From a virus: 33,804 nucleotides of DNA. The notes beneath the pieces are model-generated. The model had not been told where the DNA came from, searched no databases, and saw nothing but the letters and a program-made list of their open reading frames with translations. The translations under genes were made by a program, and so were the position numbers. The stretch covers positions 1-33,804 of IMG/VR virus record IMGVR_UViG_3300043602_000154; one strand, given 5' to 3'. Shown piece after piece: positions 2,881 through 32,047 of the stretch (position 1 is the stretch's first letter; every line of letters begins with the position of its first letter).

Positions 2881-3143
2881 GACGCGCGCCCCGCGCCGTA
2901 GACCACAACGCAGCCCTGCGCCACGAACCCCTCGCCGCATCGGCGCGGCCCGTCGAACACCGCGTAGCCGCTGCTCTCATCCACTCGCAGCATGATGTCG
3001 GCGATCGCGCCCTGCACCGCATCGCGGCTGGCGGCGGTGATCTTGTAGAGCACGCGGTTGGGCTGCCTGGGGTCGGGGTCGACCTCGAACAGCACGGCGC
3101 GGTTCGCTAGGTGGTCGACGATGTCGCGGACGGGGTCGGACAT
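2877..3143 (-). CDS. Hypothetical protein, 88 aa
   Basis: It starts MSDPVRDIVDHLANRAVLFEV at 3143, where ATG shares one base with the TGA of the methyltransferase gene (TGATG). The frame is open further upstream, but that part overlaps the methyltransferase C-terminus and is not needed. The protein looks like a small alpha/beta domain (VLYKITAASRDAVQGAIADIMLRV), with SSGYAVFDGPRRCGEGFVA near the end. No recognised family. It is co-translated in the leftward operon. Confidence 0.6.
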   Translation of the reverse strand: MSDPVRDIVDHLANRAVLFEVDPDPRQPNRVLYKITAASRDAVQGAIADIMLRVDESSGYAVFDGPRRCGEGFVAQGCVVVYGAGRAS

Positions 3144-4378
3144 CACGCGGCCTCCAATTCGTTGCCCCAAGCGTCCCAGCCTGGTCGAGCAGGGCCGCGC
3201 CGATTCAGCTCGATCTTCGGGATGTTCGGGAAATACTGCTCGATCATTTCCAAGAAGCATTCTGGCTTAGCCGAATGCGCTCCCTTCGGAGCCATGATCA
3301 GCGACTCCCATTGCGTACCGGGAGCCGGACACGGCACATGGCCGCGGGTGCCGATCAGCAGCAGCTCATGTTTGCTGCGATTCCAAAAGCCGGTGCTGAC
3401 GCGGTCCTTACCCCAGCAGTAATTCGATTTGTAGGTGAAACCCCAAGCCTCCATCACACCGATCGCCGTGCGCAGATGCTGATTGGGCGTCCAGAGAAAC
3501 AAGACGCAATCCTTGGCGCTAATCGACGGTACATCCCGCGCGGCAATGACCGCCGCATCGCTGGTCGGATAGTGATTGCTGGGATGACGATTCATTCCAG
3601 TCTCTTCCGACCAAACGTCATCTTTCCATTCTGGATCAGCAACGATGACGCCGTAGAGACGGTTAGGTAGCGCCGTTATTTTGTCAGCAAGCTCGCTTTC
3701 CCGTTTGGCGCGGCTAGCCTTCTTGCCTTCAGTCTTGGCACTGACCTTCTCGCCGTCCTTGGCGCGAGCAATCACCGCATCGCGCTGATCGGAGGGCAGG
3801 TTGATTAGAGCGTCTATTTCGTCTCCCTTATCGAGGGATGTGCCAGCAACGTCCTTCAGCCATGTGCGGCCGGTCTTGCCGCGCTGTGCACTACGCGCGA
3901 CGGTGCTGCGCCCCTTACCGGTCTGCTTAGCGGTGTCCTTCACAAAACCGCTCTCATTTTGAGAGTGGTTTTTCTTCCCTCGTCCAGGCCCAGCCGGCCT
4001 CACGGTTTCCGGATGCAGTTTTTCATACAAGGTCTTGCGCGCATCGATGTGCAACGCCTGTTCGGCGGGCGACAGGTCGGCGCGGATCAGGTTCTCGTCG
4101 ATCTCGGCAAGTTCGGCCTGATCCAAGTCCATGCCGTCGTAGATCGCGGCGCGGATGGAATCCCATTTCAGTTTCTTGGCGGCCTCGAAGCGGTGCCGGC
4201 CGGCAACTAGCCAGTAGCCATTGCCGGTGCCAGCCTTTGGCCGCAGCACGATCGGCTGCAGCAACCCGCTGACCTTCATCGATTCAGCGAGTTGTTTCAC
4301 GGTCTCGGGTCGGAGCGCCCGAAGGCGCTCCGGATTCATCCCAATGCCGCCTAGGCCAACATCCTTGACGTTAGGCAA
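3143..4378 (-). CDS. ParB-like domain fused to MT-A70 family adenine methyltransferase
   Basis: 411 aa in three parts. Residues 1-110 are a ParB/sulfiredoxin-like domain with GLLQPIVLRP (38-47) and the AGRHRFEAAKKL box (59-70). Residues 110-230 are a basic linker with HTH-like QTGKGRSTVARSAQRGK. Residues 238-411 are an MT-A70 Rossmann methyltransferase: VIVADPEW (244-251, a DPPW variant), WGFTYKSNYCWGK (312-324), KHELLLIGTRG (336-346) and PGWDAWGNE (399-407). Expected reaction: SAM-dependent N6-methylation of adenine in DNA. It starts with TTG at 4378, 10 nt after AAGGAG; an ATG lies at codon 14. It overlaps the upstream gene by 8 nt. Family assignment is firm; DNA as substrate and the target motif are inferred. 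Confidence 0.9.
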   Translation of the reverse strand: MPNVKDVGLGGIGMNPERLRALRPETVKQLAESMKVSGLLQPIVLRPKAGTGNGYWLVAGRHRFEAAKKLKWDSIRAAIYDGMDLDQAELAEIDENLIRADLSPAEQALHIDARKTLYEKLHPETVRPAGPGRGKKNHSQNESGFVKDTAKQTGKGRSTVARSAQRGKTGRTWLKDVAGTSLDKGDEIDALINLPSDQRDAVIARAKDGEKVSAKTEGKKASRAKRESELADKITALPNRLYGVIVADPEWKDDVWSEETGMNRHPSNHYPTSDAAVIAARDVPSISAKDCVLFLWTPNQHLRTAIGVMEAWGFTYKSNYCWGKDRVSTGFWNRSKHELLLIGTRGHVPCPAPGTQWESLIMAPKGAHSAKPECFLEMIEQYFPNIPKIELNRRGPARPGWDAWGNELEAA

Positions 4379-13608: not shown

Positions 13609-13633
13609 TAATAAAACCGGCCCTTTGTCACTG

Positions 13634-13643
13634 GTGCGTTGCT
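13634..13643 (+). repeat. GTGCGTTGCT intergenic motif, copy 1
   Basis: Located 124 nt before the small terminase start. In copy 1 and copy 3 the match extends to CTGGTGCGTTGCT. All four copies (also 18321, 26367, 31299) lie in non-coding gaps ahead of rightward virion or packaging genes. Confidence 0.6.
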
Positions 13644-15500: not shown

Positions 15501-15509
15501 GTGGACACG

Positions 15510-17000
15510 ATGAGTGAGGTTGCGACCGAGCAATGCAGTCCGCCGCGGGCTGCGGTTGAGATCCAGAAGCGGCGTGCGGTGCGGCGCGGGTTCGAGGCGT
15601 GGTGCCGGTATCGCGGGTATGAGCCGGCGCAGCATCATCGGTTGATCATCGATGCGGTGGAAAGTTTTCTGCGGGCTGACGGGCGCGATCAGGTGCTGCT
15701 GATTTTTGCGCCGCCCGGCTCGGCCAAAAGCTCATTCATGTCGGTGTTGTTGCCGCCGTGGTATCTGGCCAATCATCACAAGGCGGGGATCCTGTTTGCG
15801 ACCCACAGTGTCGAGTTCGCCGAGCGCTGGGGGCGCAGGGTAAGGAATGACATCGCGGCCGAGAGCTTGATGCTGGGGATCGAGCTCAGCGATGACAACA
15901 AGGCGGCGGGGCGCTGGAGCTTGAAGAGCGGCGGCGAGTATTACGCGGTCGGGGCGGGCACCGGCATCTCGGGTTATAGGGCAGACTTAGGTATTATCGA
16001 CGATCCATTCGGATCGAGGGAGGACGCCTACAGCGAGACGGTGCGCAAGGGGCGGTGGAACTGGTACTTGGACGATTTCAGTGCGCGGTTGAAGCCGGAT
16101 GCCAAGCGAGTGATCATCGCCACGAGATGGCATGAGGACGACATCTCGGGGATGGTGCTGCAGCAGATCGGGCGCGGCGAGGTCCGCGGCAAGGTGATCT
16201 CGATCGCGGCCGTTGCGGAGGAGAACGACTGCCTGGGCCGCGCGGTCGGTGAGTATCTGTGGGACGATCCCAAGGGTTACAACTACGGTGAGTTTCTGCG
16301 CAGCCGCCAGCGCGAGACCTCGCCGATGATGTGGAGTGCGCTGTATCAGCAGCGGCCGGCGCCGGAAGAGGGCGATTACTTCAAGTCAGAGTGGCTGGTC
16401 GAGGTCGAGGAGAGTGAGATTCCGGAACGCGCGCGGCTGACGGTTTATGGCGCGAGCGACTACGCGGTGACGGCGGACGGCGGCGACTACACGGTGCACG
16501 GCGTGGTCGGGTTGGATCCGGAGGGCCGGATGTATCTGCTCGATGTTTGGAGGAAGCAGACCGGGGCGGACGAGTGGGTGGAGGCGTTCTGCGACCTGGT
16601 GGGCAAGTGGAAGCCGATGGCGTGGGCCGAGGAGCAGGGGCAGATCAGGGCCGGCGTGGGGCCTTTTCTCGATCGGCGGCAGCGCGAGCGCTCAGCTTAT
16701 GTGGCGCGCGAGGGCTTCCCGACCCGCGGCGACAAGTCGGTGCGGGCGCAGTCGATCAGGGGCCGGATGGCGCTCGACAAGCTGTATGTGCCGCGCAATG
16801 CGAAGTGGTGGCCGACGCTGCGCAGTGAGTTGTTGACGTTTCCGGCCGGCAAGTACGACGATCAGGTCGACATGCTGGGGCTCATTGGGCAGCTGCTCGA
16901 CGTGATGGTGGCGGGGCGGGCGGCGAAGGTGCAGAAGAACGTGGTCAATATCGGCTACCGGCGGCTCGAGCGCCAGGTCGAGGGCTTCAAGACTTATTAG
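15510..17000 (+). CDS. terL: Terminase large subunit (ATPase and nuclease)
   Basis: 496 aa from the ATG at 15510 (a GTG three codons earlier is also in frame). ATPase domain: Walker A APPGSAKS (67-74), Walker B LGIIDD (160-165) and the coupling motif IIATRWHEDD near 200-209. C-terminal RNase H-like nuclease: YGASDYAVTADGGDYT near 310 with the first catalytic Asp, and KYDDQVDMLG near 455 with the last acidic pair. It pumps DNA into the prohead and cuts the concatemer. The family normally measures 450-550 aa, so it is complete. It converges with the minus-strand gene 16987-17253, overlapping by 14 nt. Confidence 0.93.
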   Translation: MSEVATEQCSPPRAAVEIQKRRAVRRGFEAWCRYRGYEPAQHHRLIIDAVESFLRADGRDQVLLIFAPPGSAKSSFMSVLLPPWYLANHHKAGILFATHSVEFAERWGRRVRNDIAAESLMLGIELSDDNKAAGRWSLKSGGEYYAVGAGTGISGYRADLGIIDDPFGSREDAYSETVRKGRWNWYLDDFSARLKPDAKRVIIATRWHEDDISGMVLQQIGRGEVRGKVISIAAVAEENDCLGRAVGEYLWDDPKGYNYGEFLRSRQRETSPMMWSALYQQRPAPEEGDYFKSEWLVEVEESEIPERARLTVYGASDYAVTADGGDYTVHGVVGLDPEGRMYLLDVWRKQTGADEWVEAFCDLVGKWKPMAWAEEQGQIRAGVGPFLDRRQRERSAYVAREGFPTRGDKSVRAQSIRGRMALDKLYVPRNAKWWPTLRSELLTFPAGKYDDQVDMLGLIGQLLDVMVAGRAAKVQKNVVNIGYRRLERQVEGFKTY

Positions 17001-19055: not shown

Positions 19056-19482
19056 GCCGAAGGTCGAGGCTGAGGAGCCCAAGGTAGAGCCCAAGGCCCC
19101 CGCGCCCAAGCCTGCAGCGCCAACCGCAGCGGAGGCACCACCCGAGCCGCCGACACCAGCACCGGAGCCAACGCCGGGACTGGGGCCGCAGCGGATCGAT
19201 CGGGCAGGCGTCTTCGTGGTCAAGGACCACGGGCCGGTGAAGAACCTCGCCCCCGTGCAGTTCGCCGACTGGAAGGCACCCGGCATCGCCATCACCGGCG
19301 ACAAGGCCAAACAGCATGCCGACAACCTGCGGCTGGTCGCCGACGTGATCCCAGCCGAGCACAAGAACTACGTCCTCTACCTGCGCGGCTTCGCTGATCA
19401 GTTGAGCCCGAAGTCCACGCCGCAGGAACTGTCCGCCGACAAGTTGCCCGGCGACTATAAGCCCGTGGACGGGGAGGCCTGA
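18997..19482 (+). CDS. Pro/Ala/Glu-rich protein, 161 aa, before portal
   Basis: The ATG at 18997 is 6 nt after a GAGG. A low-complexity region of Lys/Ala/Pro/Glu fills the first ~70 residues (KAKAGARPKAAEPKVEAEEP), then a compact C-terminal domain: DRAGVFVVKDHGPVKNLAPV, QFADWKAPGIAITGDKAKQH, LRLVADVIPAEHKNYVLYLR. The stop overlaps the portal ATG by one base (TGATG). Possibly a head-assembly accessory protein; no known family. The low-complexity part grows from the reading of an overlapping acidic tail, so its exact start is uncertain. Confidence 0.6.
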   Translation: MMTKKTTAKAKAGARPKAAEPKVEAEEPKVEPKAPAPKPAAPTAAEAPPEPPTPAPEPTPGLGPQRIDRAGVFVVKDHGPVKNLAPVQFADWKAPGIAITGDKAKQHADNLRLVADVIPAEHKNYVLYLRGFADQLSPKSTPQELSADKLPGDYKPVDGEA

Positions 19483-21560
19483 TGGTAGCCTTGGTCGCCT
19501 CCGCGCGCGACGGCGCTGCCGCTCCGCAACACGGCGGCGACGACACGTTTGAGGATGACGGTAAATACTACTCGATCAGCAAGCTGCGCCGGCAATATCT
19601 CGACTTCCTCGGCTCCAAATCGGCGGAAATCCAGGAGCAGAAGGAAGCCCGGCGCTATGACAGCGGTGACCAGTACACCAAGGACGAGATCGCCAAGCTG
19701 GGCAAGCGCGGCCAGCCGGTGGTCACCTTCAACGTCATTCATCCGAAATACAACGCCGTCGTCGGCATCGTCGAACGCTTGCGGCAAGACCCGAAATGCT
19801 ATCCGCGCACCCCGCAGCACCAGCAGGGCGCCGATCTGGCGACGGCAGTGCTGCGCTTTGCGCTCGACGCCAACGACTGGAACGGCAAGCACCCGCGCAT
19901 CGCCCGCTTCGGCGCCGTGGATGCCATCGGCGGCCTCGAATACGACCTCGAGCAGGGCGACCAGGGCGATCCCGACGTCCGCATCCACATCGTCTACCCG
20001 GACACCTTCTTCTACGACCCGCGCTCGTTCGATCCGGGCTTTACCGACGCCCGCTACATGGGCGTGTCGAAATGGGCCGATCCCGAGCAGGTCAAGGAGT
20101 TCTTCCCCGACAAGGCCGAGGAGATCGACAGCCTGATGGAGGGCGGCGGCCTCGGCGGCACCGATATGACGCAGGATAGCGATCGGGAGGTGATCTGGGC
20201 CAACTCGACCAGCAAGCGCGTGCGCCTGGTGGATCACTGGTACATCAGCAAAGGCGAGTGGCGCTGGTGCATCTATGTCGGCAACACCATCATGGACCAG
20301 GGCGTCTCGCCCTATGTCGACGAGCGCAACAAGACCTTCCCCAAATACCGGATGTTCTGCGCCTCGATTGATCACGACGGCGACCGCTACGGCTTTCACC
20401 GGCAGTGGAAAGACCCGCAGGACGAATACAACCTGCGCCGCTCCAAGGCCATGCACCAACTGAACTCGCGCCGCATCCGCGCCACCAAGGGCATGGTCGA
20501 CGATGTCGAGACGGCACGGCGCGAGGAAGCCAGAGCCGACGGCTGGATCGAACTCAACCCGGTGCCGAACGGCCAATACATCGCCGACGACCAGCGCCAG
20601 ATGGCCGACATGCGGGCGCATCTGGAGCTGATGAACGGCTCGCGCGAGATGATCGAGAACTTCGGCCCCAACCTCGCTTTGTTAGGGCAAGGATTGCAGG
20701 ACAGTTCCGGCCGCGCCATCGCGCTGTTGCAGCAGGCCGGCATGTCGCAGTTAGGCCCCTTCATGGGCGCGTTCAAGAACTGGAAAATCCGGGTCTATCG
20801 CGATCTCCTCAACATCATCCAGAAGTACTGGACGCAAGAGCGTTGGATCCGCGTCACCGACAGCGATGACCTGCCGCAGTTCTTTCGCATCAATCAATTG
20901 TCGGTCAACGAATGGGGCCAACCCACCATCATCAATGCGGTCGGCTCGCTCGACGTCGACATCGTGCTCGACGAAGGCCCCGATGTCATCAACATGCAGG
21001 CCGACGCGCTCGGCGTCTTGCAGTCGCTCGGCCCCAACTTCGCGCAGGAATTCCCCGAGGTCGTGCTCGAGCTCACGCCGCTACCCTCGCAACTGAAGAA
21101 GGGCATGCAAGCCAAGATCCAGGCCAAGCAGAACCAGCCGCCGCCGCCCGATCCCAAGGTCGCGGCCATGCAGCAGCAACTGATGCTGGAAGACCAGCGC
21201 GGCAAGATGCAGTTGCAGATGGAAAGCCAGCAGTTCGAGCAGAAGCTCGAGTTCCAGCGCCGCGAGGCAGCGCTCAACCGCGAGCTCAAGCTCGAAGAAA
21301 TGCGCATGAAGGACGAGATCGACCAGCGCGCCCACCTGGTCGATCTGCACAACACCCACCAGCAGCGCGAGGTCGACATCCGCGATGCCGAGGAGGACCG
21401 CCGCCTCGCCGCCGCCAATGCCGCCCGGCCACCGTCCGAAAGCATCTCCTACAAAGACTTGCCGCCCGACGGCCAGCAACAGATGGCCGCCCAGGCAGGG
21501 CTGCAGATCGCGCTGCCCGATCCACCGCCAGAACCAACGACAGGAGCCCCCAATGGGTGA
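19482..21560 (+). CDS. Portal protein (P22-like)
   Basis: 692 aa, close to the 725 aa of P22 gp1. N-terminal part: RRQYLDFLGSKSAEIQEQKE, TFNVIHPKYNAVVGIVERLR and DPDVRIHIVYPDTFFYDPRS, the pattern of P22-type portals (mixed-phosphate loop with YDPRS). Then GYRFHRQWKDPQDEYNLRRS-like wing and the crown region FGPNLALLGQGLQDSSGRAI, LLQQAGMSQLGPFMGAFKNW. The C-terminus (about 540-660) is a long Gln/Glu/Arg coiled coil, the barrel part. It forms the 12-fold DNA gate of the head. GGGGAGG precedes the ATG. Antisense frames as long as 388 codons across it are codon-bias shadows. Confidence 0.9.
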   Translation: MVALVASARDGAAAPQHGGDDTFEDDGKYYSISKLRRQYLDFLGSKSAEIQEQKEARRYDSGDQYTKDEIAKLGKRGQPVVTFNVIHPKYNAVVGIVERLRQDPKCYPRTPQHQQGADLATAVLRFALDANDWNGKHPRIARFGAVDAIGGLEYDLEQGDQGDPDVRIHIVYPDTFFYDPRSFDPGFTDARYMGVSKWADPEQVKEFFPDKAEEIDSLMEGGGLGGTDMTQDSDREVIWANSTSKRVRLVDHWYISKGEWRWCIYVGNTIMDQGVSPYVDERNKTFPKYRMFCASIDHDGDRYGFHRQWKDPQDEYNLRRSKAMHQLNSRRIRATKGMVDDVETARREEARADGWIELNPVPNGQYIADDQRQMADMRAHLELMNGSREMIENFGPNLALLGQGLQDSSGRAIALLQQAGMSQLGPFMGAFKNWKIRVYRDLLNIIQKYWTQERWIRVTDSDDLPQFFRINQLSVNEWGQPTIINAVGSLDVDIVLDEGPDVINMQADALGVLQSLGPNFAQEFPEVVLELTPLPSQLKKGMQAKIQAKQNQPPPPDPKVAAMQQQLMLEDQRGKMQLQMESQQFEQKLEFQRREAALNRELKLEEMRMKDEIDQRAHLVDLHNTHQQREVDIRDAEEDRRLAAANAARPPSESISYKDLPPDGQQQMAAQAGLQIALPDPPPEPTTGAPNG

Positions 21561-21811: not shown

Positions 21812-23470
21812 ATGTTGGGTCTCGGCATCTCGCTGACCCAGGTCGCCACTCGCGGCGGTCGCGCACCCATTGGTCCGCAGATCCTGATCTCCAACCGCTT
21901 CCAGGACGAAAACACCGCCATCGGCACCACCATCGGCACCTTCACGGTGGTCGGCGGCACCGGCACCTACACCTTCAGCAAGACCGCCGATCCCTCGAGC
22001 GCGTTCACGCTCACCGGCGCGGCGCTGAAGAACGCCATCGTGTTCGACTACGAAACCGCCACCTCCTACAGCGTCACCATCAACGCCAACAACGGCGCCG
22101 GCTCCAGCATCAACCGCACGCTCACGGTCGGCGTCAACGACATCGACGAGGTGCCGCCGGTTATCTTGACGTCGTCCACGCAGACGGTGGCCGAGAACGC
22201 GGGCTTTGCCGTTGTGCTGACCGCCGACAAGACCGTGACTTGGACCAAGACCGGCGGGGCCGACGCCGCGTTGTTCACGCTCGCCTCCGACAACCTGTCG
22301 CTGCCCGCCAAGGATTTCGAGGCCCCCGACGACGCCGACGGCAACAACACCTACGTCGTACAGGTTACCGCGACCCCGAGCAGCGGTTCCACTTACGCCA
22401 CCAACAAGACCATCACCGTCACCATCACCGACGTGTCTGACACGCTGCCAGCGCCCGGCACGCCGACGATCGTGTGGACCTCCGACGTTGATGTCTCGCC
22501 GCCGATCTTCAGTTTCTCAGCGCCCACCGATGCCGATCTGGTGGTCGGCGACACTGTGCGGTTCCAACGCTCCACGGCTTCCGACTTCTCGCTCAGCGTC
22601 ACCGCCTATACCAACACGGTCGATAGTGGCGAGGACTTGGCCAACGCGCTGACGTTCTCGTCCGGCACCTGGGCGGACGGCACCTGGTACGTGCGCGCCC
22701 GCACTGAGCGCACCGGAGCCACCAATTCGGACTGGTCGAACACCGTGACCAAGACGATCGCTACCGTCAGTGCCTTCGATCCGACATCGCTGTTCTCCAG
22801 TAACACTGGCGGCTGGTGGGATCCGTCAGATCATTCGACGACATGGCAGGATGTTGCTGGTACGACGCCTGCAACTGCGGCTGGTGATCCGGTCGCGCGC
22901 ATCGACGACAAGTCCGGCAACGGCAATCACCTGTTGCAGGCCACCAGCGGCAATCGTCCGATCCTACGCACCAGCAGCGGGCTTTGGTACCTGGAGTTCG
23001 ATGGTGTCAATGACTCTCTCGCGCGGAACTTTACTCATGTAGAACCGATTACGCGCATGGGCACCTACCAGGATCGCTCGCCGGTCAATTCCTATTGTCG
23101 CATTTATTCGGGCGGCACCTCCGTTGTGTGTGACGTCTCGCATCTGGGCGGGTCCACGGGCATCTATCAGATAGACTCGACGGGAACCTTTAGCACCATC
23201 AATAACGACTGGAGTCAGGACACGGTGCTGGTGCTGACCGATGTTCGAAACACTTCTAGCACCTCACTGAAAGTCAATAACGGCACAGCCGTGGTTACCT
23301 CCATGGCTGCGTCGAATGCGGGCGGCTTTATAATTGCCGCCGACGGTGGTGGCGGCTCCAACGAGCACGTCTATTTCTACGGCGCTATCTCGATTGGCCG
23401 TCTCCTGACCGGCACCGAGCCGGCCGACTGCCGCACCTTCTTCGGTGCCAAGGGCGGCCTGACGCTATGA
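21812..23470 (+). CDS. Adhesin or spike protein with cadherin-like and LamG-like domains
   Basis: 552 aa. Residues ~20-230 contain two cadherin-like repeats (FTVVGGTGTYTFSKTADPSS, then PPVILTSSTQTVAENAGFAV, and the DFEAPDDADGNNTYVVQVTA calcium-type segment). Residues ~230-320 look like an Fn3-type domain (GTPTIVWTSDVDVSPPIFSF). The end, ~330-552, resembles a concanavalin/LamG domain (WWDPSDHSTTWQDVAG, YLEFDGVNDSLARN, HVYFYGAISIGRLLTGTEPA). It probably binds host surface glycans. It lies between the spike base and the beta-helix spike; stop overlaps the next ATG by 4 nt (ATGA). Confidence 0.75.
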   Translation: MLGLGISLTQVATRGGRAPIGPQILISNRFQDENTAIGTTIGTFTVVGGTGTYTFSKTADPSSAFTLTGAALKNAIVFDYETATSYSVTINANNGAGSSINRTLTVGVNDIDEVPPVILTSSTQTVAENAGFAVVLTADKTVTWTKTGGADAALFTLASDNLSLPAKDFEAPDDADGNNTYVVQVTATPSSGSTYATNKTITVTITDVSDTLPAPGTPTIVWTSDVDVSPPIFSFSAPTDADLVVGDTVRFQRSTASDFSLSVTAYTNTVDSGEDLANALTFSSGTWADGTWYVRARTERTGATNSDWSNTVTKTIATVSAFDPTSLFSSNTGGWWDPSDHSTTWQDVAGTTPATAAGDPVARIDDKSGNGNHLLQATSGNRPILRTSSGLWYLEFDGVNDSLARNFTHVEPITRMGTYQDRSPVNSYCRIYSGGTSVVCDVSHLGGSTGIYQIDSTGTFSTINNDWSQDTVLVLTDVRNTSSTSLKVNNGTAVVTSMAASNAGGFIIAADGGGGSNEHVYFYGAISIGRLLTGTEPADCRTFFGAKGGLTL

Positions 23471-25701
23471 CGACCAAGGTCTACAACATCAAGACAGACT
23501 TCAGCTCGAACAATGCTTATGGCGACGGCATCAAGGTGAACAACGCGGTGCTCACCATTCCGACCAGCAGCAACAACAAACTGCTGACGGCCTCGACCGC
23601 ACTCTGGAGCACGACGCCTAATGCCGAGGTCGGAAAGATCGTTGGGTTTGCGACTGCCGACTCCGGAGCGCCGTTCTTTGGCAGCACCATTACGGCGTCA
23701 ACGTCGACGACGATCACGCTGGCAGATTCGTTCACCGGAACGGCGCTGGTCGCGTCCACGAAGTCGGTCGAGTGGGGCCATATGGATGCGCCTGCTTTCG
23801 CGGCTTTCCAAACCGCTGCTTTGGCTTGGGAGGCGGCCCATCCCGGCGACCTCATACAACTGGATATTCCTGCCGGCCGATATCTTTACACGCTATCGAC
23901 CCCTCTCAGCAGCTGCAACTTTATTGGCATCAAGAAACTCAACGTCATCATGTACGGCGGCGCGATCTTCAGCAATTGCAACGGAAACCTAGTAAGCGCC
24001 ACGGGGTTTGGTACTAAAACGCTTACCCAGGACAACCTTCGCAGCACGCGGGTTGCCACGGTTGCCAGAGGCGCGACCTCAGTGTTTGTCGTGCCGAACG
24101 CTTCGCTTCCCAATGCGACGACCATAGCTAACGCTGTTAATATATTTGAAGTTGGCCGCTGGGCGTGTCTGGCTGGGATTGATCTAGAGATCTATGGTTG
24201 GCCAGTAAATTCTGGGTTCATTGATTATGTCTTGATCTCAGGCAAAAACACCACAACTGGCGAGATCTCGTTCGCCACCACGCCGTTGCAGCATTATTAT
24301 AAGTCAACGTGGCCGCTGTATAACACGAGTTCGGCGGGAGACAACGGTGGCCCAGCAACGCTCTACGCCATGGATGCAGAATGGGACGTAGAGCATACCT
24401 ACACTGACATCACTCTTGATACCCCAAACGCTTATAGCAACGCGCCAGGCCGATCGATTACATTCATTAATCCGACCTTTATCAATCCGTCATTGAGTTC
24501 GCCGTTTATGGGGTCGACGACTTGTGGGGTGTTTGCCTCCGGTAGTCAATCATGGACCCTCATCGGCGGCAATCTTGGCATCTTCAGCATGGAGGTGGAC
24601 AAGTGGACGCAACAGTTCACCATGCAAGACGTGAACAGTCCTACTGCGTCATTGAATTTGTTTACCGGAAGCAACATGGAAAACATGTTGATAGACAACT
24701 GCAACCTATACCAGATCGTCGGGTCTGCCAGGAACGTCGTCATAAGGGACAGCACCATCAACCACCTCTGGCAAACGCCTACGAGTTATGGGCGGTGCGA
24801 GTCGATTACGGTTACAAATAGCGTTATTGCTGATTTCGTTGACGGCAGCATGACTTTTTTTGGTCTCTCCAGCGAGGGAATTAATAACATCTCCGGGGCG
24901 TCCATGACCTCTGGTGTTATTGCTATTCCAAATTCCTACATCCACTCCTATGACGGCGGCGGCGCCTGGATATGCGAAGGCAACTGGATGGCGTGGTGTC
25001 GGAAAGACACCGTAACAGCATTTGCCCCATACTTTCGGATCACCGACCTGACCCAGGACGCGACCTATACCTATATTCACACGACGTGGCCGAGCGGGTT
25101 TCCAAGCAGCCTGCCGGGAACCGGGGTTCTTGGGCTTCGCCTTCATCCCTGCCCGGATTTCACATGCACAGATTGCGCAGGCGTGGCGCCAGTCACCTCG
25201 GACGACGGCTCCCTGATCTACGCACTGTCGCAGGCCCCGGACCATATTCCGCTCACGTCATATAACAGGGGCACGATCACCCAAGCTGGCGGGTTCGCGT
25301 TCCGGCATATCATTGGTTACATCAAGAAGATCAATATCACGGTGAACACCGCAGCCGTTGACGCGAGCTTCGTGACGACGCTCAATCTAAGGCCGTCTGT
25401 TCTTGGCTTTGTTAATGCCTCAAATGTCGCCACCTCCTATCCTTATCTCATCGATCTTGAGACGGCGAGCGGAACCGCAAGGTCGCTGATTGTCCCTAGT
25501 GGAGCCTCTTATCCGATCGTTTGGACCGGGGCACAATCCGGCGACACGCTACCCAACCTGACCGAGGCACTGTGGTGGTCGGGAGACTATGTGTTGAAAT
25601 CTATCGACTCTCATACCGGAACGCCCTGGTCAGTGACGGTGGAATTGCAGACCAATCAGGGCGTCGATATCGGCCGTCACTTCACCTGTACGTTTGCCTG
25701 A
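23467..25701 (+). CDS. Tail-spike protein with beta-helix (pectate-lyase-like) domain
   Basis: 744 aa. An N-terminal region (MTTKVYNIKTDFSSNNAYGD) is followed by FQTAALAWEAAHPGDLIQLD, IPAGRYLYTLSTPLSSCNFI, the standard entry of right-handed beta-helix phage spikes (a pile of INDAFQ-AI-AA-GG-V-IPAG-Y pattern). The helix continues to about residue 480 with N-rich rungs (ENMLIDNCNLYQIVGSARNV, VVIRDSTINHLW). The last 200 residues form a C-terminal domain. It is probably an enzymatic spike that cleaves or binds host polysaccharide. It overlaps the minus-strand gene by 25 nt. The codon use is less GC-biased than in portal or coat, a sign of recent exchange. Confidence 0.75.
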   Translation: MTTKVYNIKTDFSSNNAYGDGIKVNNAVLTIPTSSNNKLLTASTALWSTTPNAEVGKIVGFATADSGAPFFGSTITASTSTTITLADSFTGTALVASTKSVEWGHMDAPAFAAFQTAALAWEAAHPGDLIQLDIPAGRYLYTLSTPLSSCNFIGIKKLNVIMYGGAIFSNCNGNLVSATGFGTKTLTQDNLRSTRVATVARGATSVFVVPNASLPNATTIANAVNIFEVGRWACLAGIDLEIYGWPVNSGFIDYVLISGKNTTTGEISFATTPLQHYYKSTWPLYNTSSAGDNGGPATLYAMDAEWDVEHTYTDITLDTPNAYSNAPGRSITFINPTFINPSLSSPFMGSTTCGVFASGSQSWTLIGGNLGIFSMEVDKWTQQFTMQDVNSPTASLNLFTGSNMENMLIDNCNLYQIVGSARNVVIRDSTINHLWQTPTSYGRCESITVTNSVIADFVDGSMTFFGLSSEGINNISGASMTSGVIAIPNSYIHSYDGGGAWICEGNWMAWCRKDTVTAFAPYFRITDLTQDATYTYIHTTWPSGFPSSLPGTGVLGLRLHPCPDFTCTDCAGVAPVTSDDGSLIYALSQAPDHIPLTSYNRGTITQAGGFAFRHIIGYIKKINITVNTAAVDASFVTTLNLRPSVLGFVNASNVATSYPYLIDLETASGTARSLIVPSGASYPIVWTGAQSGDTLPNLTEALWWSGDYVLKSIDSHTGTPWSVTVELQTNQGVDIGRHFTCTFA

Positions 25702-26296: not shown

Positions 26297-26366
26297 TTTG
26301 CCGCCCCCACCCAACCGCGCCGGACTCCTGAAGTCAACGGCCGTCTAAAAATTGCCGCCCGCCCTG

Positions 26367-26376
26367 GTGCGTTGCT
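26367..26376 (+). repeat. GTGCGTTGCT intergenic motif, copy 3
   Basis: Located 126 nt before the scaffold gene start. ATTGCCGCC (26351-26359) precedes it and a C-run follows, as in copy 2. A GCCTCG/CGAGGC hairpin lies at 26414-26431 between it and the scaffold gene. Confidence 0.6.
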
Positions 26377-27446: not shown

Positions 27447-28607
27447 ATGGCCATCAGCACTCCACAGATCAATAACGTCCTCACCAAGTTCACCAAGCAG
27501 ATCAACTTCGAATACGTCCGGCAAAACCTGTTCAGCCCCTACATGGGCGAAGACATGGGCGCCATCATCCGCATCCGTCGCGAGCTGACGGACGCGGGCA
27601 ACCAGATGAACATCCCGCTCGTCGCCGCCCTGACCGGCGCGGGCGTCGGCTCCGGCCCGCTGGTCGGCAACGAAGAGAAGATCGACGACTACGGCATGCG
27701 GCTGTGGATCGACTACGCCCGCAACGCCGTGGTTTCCAACAAGTCAGCCCGCCGCAAGGATTCAGCGGAGGTGTTCGACGAGGCCCGCTCGCTCTTGGGC
27801 GACTGGGGCAAGTCAAAGCAACGCGACGAAATCGTCGACGCGCTCTATGCGCTGCCTTCGGAGTCGGCCCCGGTCCTTCTCGACTCCAACGCCGGCCAGC
27901 GCGTCAACGGCATTCAGTTCGCGGCTGCCACCGCCGCCCAGCGCAATACCTGGCTGACGGACAACTCCGATCGCGTGCTGTTCGGCAAACTGGTGTCCAA
28001 TGGCGTCAGCAACGTGTTCGCGACCGCGACCGCCACCCTCGACACCACCGACGACCGCTGCAACCGCGCCGCCATGCGCCTGCTCAAGCGCATTGCCAAG
28101 AACGCCACGCCGAAACTGCGGCCCTACAAGACCACTGACGGTCGCGAATACTTCGTCGCCTTCCACGGCACCCGCACCTTCCGCGATCTCAAGCAGGATC
28201 TCGAAACCATCAATGCCACTGCCCGCCCGCGGGAGGGCAACGGCATGGACAAGAACCCGATCTTCCAGGACGGCGATCTGCTCGACGACGGGGTGATCCA
28301 CCGGGAGGTTCCAGAGATCGATACCCGCTGCCCGGCCTATTACGACCTGGCCGGTGCTACCGACGCCAGCCCTGACACAAAGACCGATGTGCGTCCGGTC
28401 TGGATGTGCGGGCAGGGTGCGCTCGCGTTCGGCTGGGGGCAGATGGCGCGTCCCACGCAGAGAGACGAAACCGATTACCAATTTCTCAAGGGCGTCGGTG
28501 TCGAAATGGCCTACGGCGTCGGCAAAATGTTTAAAAAAACCATCGCGGGCGCGCTCAAGGAATGGTCGATCGCCACCGGCTTCTTCGCTGCCGCGCCCGA
28601 CTCCTGA
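27447..28607 (+). CDS. Major capsid protein (N4-gp56/DUF4043 family)
   Basis: 386 aa. Characteristic features: KQINFEYVRQNLFSPYMGED, MGAIIRIRRELTDAGNQMNI (first strands), LTGAGVGSGPLVGNEEKIDD (E-loop region), LWIDYARNAVVSNKSARRKD and SLLGDWGKSKQRDEIVDALY. This matches the N4-gp56 family of HK97-fold coat proteins. The C-terminal half holds the peripheral domain (GREYFVAFHGTRTFRDLKQD) and ends VGKMFKKTIAGALKEWSIAT. A good AGGAAAGGA site precedes the ATG. It forms the icosahedral shell around the scaffold. Confidence 0.88.
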   Translation: MAISTPQINNVLTKFTKQINFEYVRQNLFSPYMGEDMGAIIRIRRELTDAGNQMNIPLVAALTGAGVGSGPLVGNEEKIDDYGMRLWIDYARNAVVSNKSARRKDSAEVFDEARSLLGDWGKSKQRDEIVDALYALPSESAPVLLDSNAGQRVNGIQFAAATAAQRNTWLTDNSDRVLFGKLVSNGVSNVFATATATLDTTDDRCNRAAMRLLKRIAKNATPKLRPYKTTDGREYFVAFHGTRTFRDLKQDLETINATARPREGNGMDKNPIFQDGDLLDDGVIHREVPEIDTRCPAYYDLAGATDASPDTKTDVRPVWMCGQGALAFGWGQMARPTQRDETDYQFLKGVGVEMAYGVGKMFKKTIAGALKEWSIATGFFAAAPDS

Positions 28608-29737: not shown

Positions 29738-31150
29738 ATGGTGGCAATCCCCTTCCCCCTCTCGTCGGCCCCCGGCCGCGTGCCGCAGGAAGGCGCCGGC
29801 CGCCTGCTCAACTGTTTCGCCGAGCCGCTCGGCGACGGCCGTGCCGTGTGGGCGCGCTGTCCCGGCCTGACCCGGTTCGCCACCTCGACCCAGGAGACAT
29901 TCTGCGGCGGCCTGCAGGTCGCGGGCACGCTCTACAGCGCATGGAACGGCAAGGTGGCCACGTTCAACTCCACCGGCACCGAGACGGTACTGAGCGGCAC
30001 GCTGTTGACCACCACCAACAAGGGCTTCTGGGCGCGCAACAACAACACCACGCCCGATGTCGTGTTCGTCGATCCGCAGAACGGTGCCTATACGGTGACC
30101 TCGAGCGCGGTCAGTGCCTTCGCCGACATCGATGCCGCCGGGGTGAACTCGGTGTGCTTCCAGCACGGATACTTTTTTTTCACCCGCGGCGACGGTCGCG
30201 TCATCAACTCCGACCTCAACGCCGTCACTGTGAACGGGCTCGGCTTCACCGTGGCAGACGCCAAGCCCGATGGCGCACTGCGGGCCATTCCCTGGAACGA
30301 TCAGCTCTACATCTTCGGCCAGTCCTCTATCCAAATCTATCAGGACACCGCCAACACGCCGCCGGCCTTTCCCTACTCGCTGGTGACTACTGTTTCACGT
30401 GGAATAGCGGGCCGCTACGCCGTCGCCGGGCACGAGGATGGTTTCGGGCAGGAACTGCTCTGGGTGGCCGATGACAACACGGTCTGCCGCCTGAAGGGCT
30501 ACCAGCCCGACAAGGTGTCGCCGCCGCATCTCGATCGCCTGATCGCGGCCGTGGCCGACAAGAACACGCTCGAGGCCTCCTGCTACATCTCAGGCGGTCA
30601 TCCGAAATGGGTGCTGTCGTGCGCCGACTGGACCTGGGAGTTCGACCTCAACACCCAGAAATGGAACGAGCGCGCCTCCTACCTGATCCCGCGCTGGCGC
30701 GGCACCCAGGCGGTGTTCGCCTTCGACAGGTGGATCGTCGGCGACACCATGTCGGGCAAACTGTTGTCGGTCGACGAGACCGCGCACGAAGAGGACGGCG
30801 ACCCGCTGCTCTACCGCATCGAGAGCGGCCCGGTGGCTAAGTTTCCCAACCGCACCGTCGTGCCGCGCGCCGACTTCAACTTCGCCTCCGGTGTCGGCAT
30901 TGCCACCGGCCCTGATCCGATCGCCACCCAGCCCCGCGTGCGGGTGTCGTGGTCGGACGATGGAGGGGTGTCGTGGGGGAATCCGCTGCACCGTCAACTG
31001 GGACCGCAGGGCCGCGGCGAGGTGCGCGTCACCGTCACCCGCACCGGCATGGCGGGGCCGATGGGACGGCGCTGGCGGCTCGACGTCACCGACCCCGTGC
31101 ATGTCGGCCTGATGGGCGGCGACCAGGCCACCATACTGGGATCGAACTGA
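29738..31150 (+). CDS. P22 gp10-like packaged DNA stabilization / tail hub protein
   Basis: 470 aa. It begins VAIPFPLSSAPGRVPQEGAG, RLLNCFAEPLGDGRAVWARC, PGLTRF, the opening of the gp10 family. A beta-propeller-type body follows with repeated GYFFFTRGDGRVINSDLNAV, DQLYIFGQSSIQIYQDTANT and ELLWVADDNTVCRLKGYQPD blades, and it ends GMAGPMGRRWRLDVTDPVHV. P22 gp10 forms the hexameric hub that plugs the portal after packaging and carries the tail machine. The placement after gp4 agrees. A T8 run (30173-30180) codes FFF without breaking the frame. Confidence 0.75.
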   Translation: MVAIPFPLSSAPGRVPQEGAGRLLNCFAEPLGDGRAVWARCPGLTRFATSTQETFCGGLQVAGTLYSAWNGKVATFNSTGTETVLSGTLLTTTNKGFWARNNNTTPDVVFVDPQNGAYTVTSSAVSAFADIDAAGVNSVCFQHGYFFFTRGDGRVINSDLNAVTVNGLGFTVADAKPDGALRAIPWNDQLYIFGQSSIQIYQDTANTPPAFPYSLVTTVSRGIAGRYAVAGHEDGFGQELLWVADDNTVCRLKGYQPDKVSPPHLDRLIAAVADKNTLEASCYISGGHPKWVLSCADWTWEFDLNTQKWNERASYLIPRWRGTQAVFAFDRWIVGDTMSGKLLSVDETAHEEDGDPLLYRIESGPVAKFPNRTVVPRADFNFASGVGIATGPDPIATQPRVRVSWSDDGGVSWGNPLHRQLGPQGRGEVRVTVTRTGMAGPMGRRWRLDVTDPVHVGLMGGDQATILGSN

Positions 31151-31296
31151 TGGTCACGCTGTCACCCAAGCTGCCGCCGTTGCCGAATGTCACCGTGCCG
31201 GTGATCGACCCCAAGACCGGTCTCATCAGCATCGAATGGTATTCGTGGCTGAAGTTGGTCGACACCATCGTGCGGACGCTGCGCACCGAGGTCTAG
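31150..31296 (+). CDS. Small virion-region protein, 48 aa
   Basis: MVTLSPKLPPLPNVTVPV, IDPKTGLISIEWYSWLKLVD, TIVRTLRTEV. The stop of the gp10-like gene shares a base with this ATG (TGATG at 31148-31152). Short proteins of the type P-LP-V-DPKTG-I--EWYRWF-xLV are common in phage tail regions, often as an N-terminal part of a fibre or as a separate connector; here it ends as a separate protein. No functional claim. Confidence 0.6.
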   Translation: MVTLSPKLPPLPNVTVPVIDPKTGLISIEWYSWLKLVDTIVRTLRTEV

Positions 31297-31298
31297 GG

Positions 31299-31308
31299 GT
31301 GCGTTGCT
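31299..31308 (+). repeat. GTGCGTTGCT intergenic motif, copy 4
   Basis: Just after the 48-aa gene and 45 nt before the start of the frameshifted virion gene. The flanks differ from copies 2 and 3. Confidence 0.55.
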
Positions 31309-31352
31309 TGAACTGTGGCTGGCGGCATGCTGGCCCCACCTCTAACAGAGGA

Positions 31353-32047
31353 GTGCGTGTCATCTCGTTATTCGATTTTTTTCATCTAAGCCCGCCAAAG
31401 ACGCCGCCGCGGCGCGCGTAGCCGGGCTCAACCAGGGCTACAGCCAACTGTCGGACCTGTACGACAGGGGCACGAGCGCGCTGACCTCGAACGTCAATCA
31501 GGGCATCAGCCTCTACGATCCGCTCATCGCGAGCACCTCGGGTGGGGCTGGAGCCTTTGGCGATGCGACGGGTGCCAACGGGCCGGAAGGCCTGGCGCGG
31601 GCACGGGCGCTGTTCACGCAGAACCCCGGCTATCAGGAGGGGCTCACGCAGTCGCTCGACCAGAACGACCGGCGTGCGGCCTCGCGCGGCATGCTCAACT
31701 CAGGCAACACCATTGCCGACACCACCAAGCTCGCGACCGACTACACCAACCGGCTCTATGGCGACTACGTTTCCAGGCTGCAACCCTATCTCGGCGCCAA
31801 CCAGGGCGCGGTGGGCGGGGCGGCAGGCATGTATGCCAACCTCGGCCAAGGCCTTGCGGGCCTCTACGGGCAGCAGGGACAGGCGGCGCAGGCGACCCAG
31901 ACGGGCATCGGCAATGCCAATGCGGATGCCAAGCTGGCCGACTACAACGCCTCCAAGAACATCTGGACGACCGGGATGGGTGTTCTGCAAGCGGCGGCCT
32001 CTGCCGCTGCCGGGGTGCCGGTTCCGCCGAAACCCCCGACGGCCTAA
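31353..32047 (+). CDS. Virion/DNA-ejection-type protein read through a -1 frameshift, ~231 aa
   Basis: The beginning (VRVISLFDFF, from the GTG at 31353 after AGAGGA) and the rest (SSKPAKDAAAARVAGLNQGY..., to 32047) are in different frames. They join smoothly if reading slips back one base on T7 (31376-31382). Without the slip the product stops at 31421 after 22 aa. The long frame has no start codon before an ATG at 31691, which would lose the first half. Fused protein: an Ala/Gly/Gln-rich helical protein (GYQEGLTQSLDQNDRRAASR, GMLNSGNTIADTTKLATDYT) like the internal or ejection proteins of podoviruses. The start codon choice is uncertain. It could instead be a homopolymer indel. Confidence 0.6.
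31376..31428 (+). promoter_or_regulatory. Putative -1 ribosomal frameshift signal
   Basis: The zero frame reads T TTT TTT (31376-31382), a canonical X XXY YYZ heptamer. After a 6-nt spacer (31383-31388) the stem AGCCCG (31389-31394) / CGGGCT (31423-31428) can form, enclosing the self-complementary CGCCGCGGCG. Slippery heptamer, spacer of 5-9 nt and stem-loop are the standard parts of programmed -1 frameshifting. Confidence 0.6.

Follow-up and report, generated by a model that had tools for sequence, protein, structure and literature searches.

In bacteria, IF3 rejects weak third-base pairs at the start codon (PMC10158994) and represses non-canonical starts (PMC5472188). The gene for IF3 itself, infC, starts with AUU in E. 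coli and with ATC in Streptomyces, and sigR starts with GTC (PMC5472188). A different kind of early control is found in the RF2 genes (prfB), which are read through a +1 shift at CUU-U, or at UUU-U in a minority of species (PMC5009743, PMC12421855); the prfB motif includes an internal Shine-Dalgarno (SD) sequence, AGGGGG, 3 nt before the quartet and a C after the UGA (PMC12421855). For phage ejection proteins there is a reason to keep synthesis low, as the P22 virion holds about 12 molecules of gp7 against 415 of coat, and DNA and ejection proteins compete for the room inside (PMC8402733). Here we analyze the start of a gp7-like gene in a stretch of viral DNA of 33,804 nt (IMG/VR record IMGVR_UViG_3300043602_000154, positions 1–33,804), referred to below as the window.

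The window corresponds to the late region of a podovirus resembling P22, containing genes for the large terminase (15501–17000), a P22-type portal (19482–21560), the coat protein (27447–28607) and an Hc3-like protein (29738–31150), with the portal and coat genes in P22 order. A small ORF of 48 residues on the plus strand (31150–31296, ending RTLRTEV*), 83–96% identical in loci L038 and L039, lies between the Hc3-like gene and the gene studied here. The main frame of the latter (31382–32047, plus strand, 221 aa) matches phrog_598, ‘DNA ejection’, in a profile search with an E value of 8.9e-7, as do 11 of the 15 members of family set A1, in agreement with the earlier note on this DNA, which had called the product an ejection-type protein. 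By sequence it belongs with the P22 gp7-like ejection genes; presence of its product in the virion and a role in ejection are putative. Elsewhere in the window, an MT-A70 type DNA methyltransferase is fused to a ParB N-terminal domain (3143–4378, minus strand), and two large ORFs between the portal and coat genes (21812–23470, 552 aa, and 23467–25701, 744 aa) have no PHROG match and no Pfam match above its cut-off. No Rfam family reached its gathering threshold, and no phage-borne tRNA gene was found in the window or in 30 loci.

The start of the gene is divided between two frames. Frame 0, read from 31353, is GTG CGT GTC ATC TCG TTA TTC GAT TTT TTT CAT; it encodes ISLFDFF before the break and ends at a stop codon at 31419–31421, giving a short plus-strand ORF (31353–31421) of 22 aa from GTG or 19 aa from ATC. 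The main frame is open from 31382 to 32047, with no ATG, GTG or TTG before 31691. The two are joined by a run of seven Ts (31376–31382, plus strand), at which a -1 shift is needed and which forms an X XXY YYZ heptamer, T TTT TTT, in phase with frame 0. The earlier note had described all of these elements (the T7 run, its phasing as U UUU UUU, the change of frame there, the 22-residue frame-0 peptide, the 221-codon continuation, and a 6-nt spacer at 31383–31388 followed by an AGCCCG/CGGGCT complement), and each is present in the sequence. Over the 27 codons after the break, pN/pS is 0.26, in the main frame only. The window holds three other T7 or T8 runs and two A7 runs, compared with about 0.6 expected, so a T7 run by itself is unremarkable here. 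The feature that exceeds chance, judging from the sequences of relatives, is the siting of the frame break exactly in the first codons of the gene.

Upstream of the break, a Shine-Dalgarno sequence, GAGGAG (31348–31353, plus strand; -6.8 kcal/mol with the anti-SD), precedes by 8 nt the proposed start codon, ATC (31362–31364, plus strand), which aligns with the ATC and ATA starts of the close clade and with the ATG of distant relatives. The alternative in-frame GTG (31353–31355) overlaps the SD and is not conserved. A short hairpin, CCUCU-AAC-AGAGG (31339–31351, plus strand), pairs part of the SD and is kept in the centroid fold; the stability of the whole window leader is not above that of shuffled sequences.

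The earlier note had proposed that the T7 run is a programmed -1 site stimulated by a downstream stem-loop. The stem (AGCCCG at 31389–31394 with CGGGCT at 31423–31428, plus strand) can be drawn, and the 60 nt after T7 fold at -22.3 kcal/mol. Dinucleotide shuffles give -20.7 ± 2.6 (z -0.61), and 52 of the 200 were as stable as the real sequence, so the fold is not above chance. The corresponding region of L001 folds differently. We therefore rejected the stem-loop as a -1 stimulator. The close clade, assembled from ten IMG/VR records and one more found via a shared motif, was aligned, the check that the note had suggested. T7 is absent from every relative, and most have no break: L003, L004, L010 and L028 have a single frame in which ATC follows the SD by 8 nt and a GTG overlaps the SD, and L002 (ATC) and L006–L009 (ATA), likewise in one continuous frame, lack any in-frame ATG, GTG or TTG. 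With T7 missing from all relatives and a stem-loop of the stability expected by chance, the evidence gives no support to a conserved -1 signal. The more general claim of an unusual translation start fared better, as relatives have either AUC or AUA starts or +1 breaks.

Two close relatives are broken in other ways. L001 reads ATG GGC CTG TTT TGA and needs a +1 shift; L005 reads ATG GGC TTA TTT TCG and needs -1 or +2. At 2976–3010 of L005, and also in L059 and L035, the sequence ATG GGC TTA TTT TCG ATT offers no suitable place for a slip; L005 might reach the body frame through two +1 shifts in succession, or start at a main-frame AUU. The body of L001 differs from that of the window by 23 silent base differences and encodes an identical protein, so that, as far as sequence can tell, the two bodies are intact proteins behind breaks of different kinds. 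Their leaders and first codons (window 31307–31375) are unrelated between nearly identical flanks. The unrelated stretch runs from the 10-mer GGGTGCGTTG to about codon 6, and the combination of unrelated leaders and identical body proteins suggests that the start region is a swapped cassette. The 10-mer (31297–31306, plus strand) directly follows the upstream stop and is invariant in the close-clade alignment. It is found again at other sites in L027, L028, L031, L035 and L036, and near-copies (TGGTGCGTTG) occur in the window at 13632–13641 and 26365–26374; it is probably a promoter element of this phage group. Searches of phage and plasmid collections for cultured relatives gave no close match, and in four distant cultured relatives the annotated gene junctions are ordinary.

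We extended the comparison to the whole family, gathered by body-sequence searches and leader-pattern searches. After removal of near-copies and very distant rows, 87 distinct members remained, nearly all metagenomic with few isolates. AUG or GTG starts (one GTG) account for 54; these usually have a weak SD and overlap the stop codon of the upstream frame. A further 26 begin with AUC, AUA or AUU (AUH: 20 ATC, 4 ATA and 2 ATT, the last in L056 and L126), usually behind a near-perfect AGGAGG that in most lies 5 nt before the start. The remaining seven, including the window, are broken, always within the first 8 codons; the T7 break was observed only once, in the window. Parts of the AUH and broken sets were collected via the leader pattern, with 19 of the 26 AUH members coming from body-based searches. 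The body was free of breaks in all 174 loci (about 90 distinct), every one of which contains one matching ORF, although breaks near the 3' end could escape this count. Upstream of many AUH and broken members, the preceding gene ends in H-G-E-F-A-R-x-x or a similar sequence (L170, L096, L056, L126, L134, L168 and L169, for example); ahead of most AUG members the ending is KLWTPGAN.

In the AUH class no ATG, GTG or TTG is available and a rare codon occupies the SD spacing. An in-frame stop lies at most 4 codons upstream in 18 of the 26 genes and tandem stops in 14, as in TAA TAG GAG GCT CCC ATC GGA, so that translation must start at the rare codon itself or immediately next to it. A hidden upstream start or a fusion is thus impossible in those 18 genes. 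On the strength of the tandem stops and the well-placed SD we rejected, for the class, a readthrough or bypassing product that includes the upstream ORF. After the AUH start, G-[L/I]-F-D is conserved in the protein although its synonymous codons vary, and AUG members show the same. Within this family, the leader TAGGAGGCTNNCATNGG is followed in IMG/VR by ATC 18 times, by ATA once and by ATG never; three matches followed by ATG belong to other proteins. We also considered whether AUC starts are used phage-wide and rejected this, as the AUH-plus-SD arrangement is essentially confined to this gene (22 loci). Literature searches found no AUC start in a phage structural gene.

Five of the seven broken members share a +1 site. 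UUU UGA occurs at codons 4–5 after AUG in L001, L170, L172 and L177, where a shifty pyrimidine quartet precedes UGA and the body is in the +1 frame; L096 has UUU CGA at the same place. A +1 slip of tRNA-Phe at these sites would produce M-G-[L/I]-F-D, the N-terminus of ordinary members, and in L170 would give the peptide MGLFDLFSNDSAEQ. The break in L170 is not an artefact of metagenome assembly, as this locus comes from an isolate, Bradyrhizobium tropiciagri SZCCT0294. L172 and L177 have the leader and the UUU-UGA break in common, and their bodies differ by about 78 silent changes (pS 0.376, pN 0.077, pN/pS 0.21). The site would work like that of prfB and fails two of its defining features: the internal SD is absent, with only AUGGGC at that spacing, and the UGA is followed by U instead of C. 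An alternative to the +1 slip is AUG initiation after which the peptidyl-tRNA drops off early and the ribosome re-initiates in the new frame. Drop-off and re-initiation at N-termini is documented and IF3-dependent (PMC10158994); such events, however, shorten the peptide in the same frame, and UUU-Y slippage is simpler and has the precedent of prfB (PMC5009743, PMC12421855). We consider drop-off very unlikely.

SD strength differs with the type of start. Median SD energies are -5.8 kcal/mol for AUG, -9.9 for AUH and -10.0 for broken members (p=7e-11 for AUH and 1e-4 for broken). Among loci found by body sequence, without leader patterns, weak or broken starts outnumber others 17:2 behind a strong SD and are outnumbered 7:52 behind a weak one (Fisher p=7.5e-10). 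All of these p values overstate significance, because related members are not independent. Most AUG members overlap the upstream stop or come very close to it; in AUH and broken members the distance is at least 9 nt. On the body tree the start states are scattered, with 22 changes, at least 14 of them forced for AUH by well-supported branches; L088 (ATC) and L090 (ATG) have bodies identical over the tree columns. Leader recombination can produce such switches.

The start types, the breaks, the SD strengths, purifying selection on the body and the repeated switching are direct observations, and the pattern of starts suggests a deliberate limit on the amount of protein made. Our preferred reading, which we hold to be probable, is that the gene is kept hard to start by interchangeable devices, with synthesis throttled at the first codons. 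In one arrangement, an AUG that would be acceptable as such is paired with a weak SD and usually overlaps the upstream stop. In a second, a strong SD precedes an AUC, AUA or AUU start that IF3 would be expected mostly to reject. In a third, a strong SD and AUG are followed by the +1 site at codons 4–5 (UUU-UGA, or UUU-CGA in one member), and protein would come only from ribosomes whose Phe-tRNA slips +1. Expression of the gene would accordingly be low, and low expression would be what selection keeps; for the AUG class, low expression that is tolerated and not selected would also fit. In the window, an AUC start would be followed by the break at U UUU UUU, which requires a -1 slip. Ribosomal slippage across its T7 run is plausible, and AUC initiation followed by a -1 slip there is the reading we favour for the window, at about even odds. 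Together the two would be a double block, which would count against throttling by interchangeable devices, and the window SD (-6.8 kcal/mol) is weaker than those of the other broken members.

For the window alone, the strongest competing explanation is that T7 is an assembly or sequencing error or a fresh inactivating deletion, the real frame running from AUC or GTG. Homopolymers are prone to error, relatives lack the T7 run, and L028, the nearest leader type, is in one frame; against this, six other members are broken in the same 8 codons with no body break seen, and a random break would land in these codons with a chance of about 4%. Illumina sequencing, moreover, seldom miscounts a run of seven Ts. 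We regard a defect or error as a tentative possibility, to be taken seriously. Less plausibly, the broken members may start at a main-frame non-AUG codon past the break, such as the AUU at 31370 in the window or the AUU in L005. AUU does serve as a start in L056 and L126, and the main frame of the window and of L005 contains one. Its distance from the SD is, however, about 16 nt, no main-frame AUH is located close to the SD of L001, and the conserved GLFD would be lost, making such a start unlikely. Transcriptional slippage on a T run, as opposed to slippage of the ribosome, could cross the break at T7, and poly-T motifs are avoided in E. coli genes, possibly for this reason (PMC4066793). The broken members L096, L001, L170, L172 and L005, however, have only T3–T4 runs. 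These are too short for known polymerase slippage, and we find this explanation quite unlikely. Finally, the gene might be dispensable and in decay, with the breaks and non-AUG starts as signs of it, but this is most improbable: the breaks are of several kinds and P22 gp7 has little need of its first 20 residues (PMC8402733), but pN/pS is low both directly after the window break and between L172 and L177, the body is free of breaks, and the AUC leader is conserved as such.

A further reading, drawn by analogy with infC and prfB and in our view doubtful, is that the start may act as a translation-factor sensor, phages alternating between an IF3-sensitive start and an RF2-sensitive +1 shift. Synthesis of the ejection protein would then not just be low but would follow the state of the host translation machinery late in infection. 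AUC, AUA and AUU are among the rarest bacterial starts, and gene callers limited to ATG, GTG and TTG will truncate or miss this gene. The interchange of non-AUG starts and early frameshifts across lineages is a natural experiment on the tuning of start strength. With it one can test directly why an ejection protein has to be kept at low levels, and whether phage genomes with early frame breaks carry errors or control devices.

Compared with the described systems, the locus resembles each in part. It shares with known frameshifts in virion genes the use of frameshifting itself; those, however, yield a second, extended product near the 3' end, whereas here the shift would fall at codons 3–8 and give the main product. 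As in prfB, an early in-frame UGA in L001, L170, L172 and L177 follows a pyrimidine-rich Phe/Leu codon and the body lies in the +1 frame; the differences are that the shift would occur at codon 5 and not 26, that L096 has CGA in place of UGA, and that the gene is a phage ejection gene. With P22 gp7 and its relatives (phrog_598) it shares the profile match and gene order, but P22 gp7 has an ordinary ATG start, in contrast to the proposed AUC start and the break of the window gene. The likeness to infC is a rare non-AUG start expected to be repressed by IF3; here, in contrast, it is a phage structural gene, with a near-perfect SD in most members and spread over many phage lineages, in which AUC, AUA and AUU starts alternate with other devices and control by IF3 is putative.
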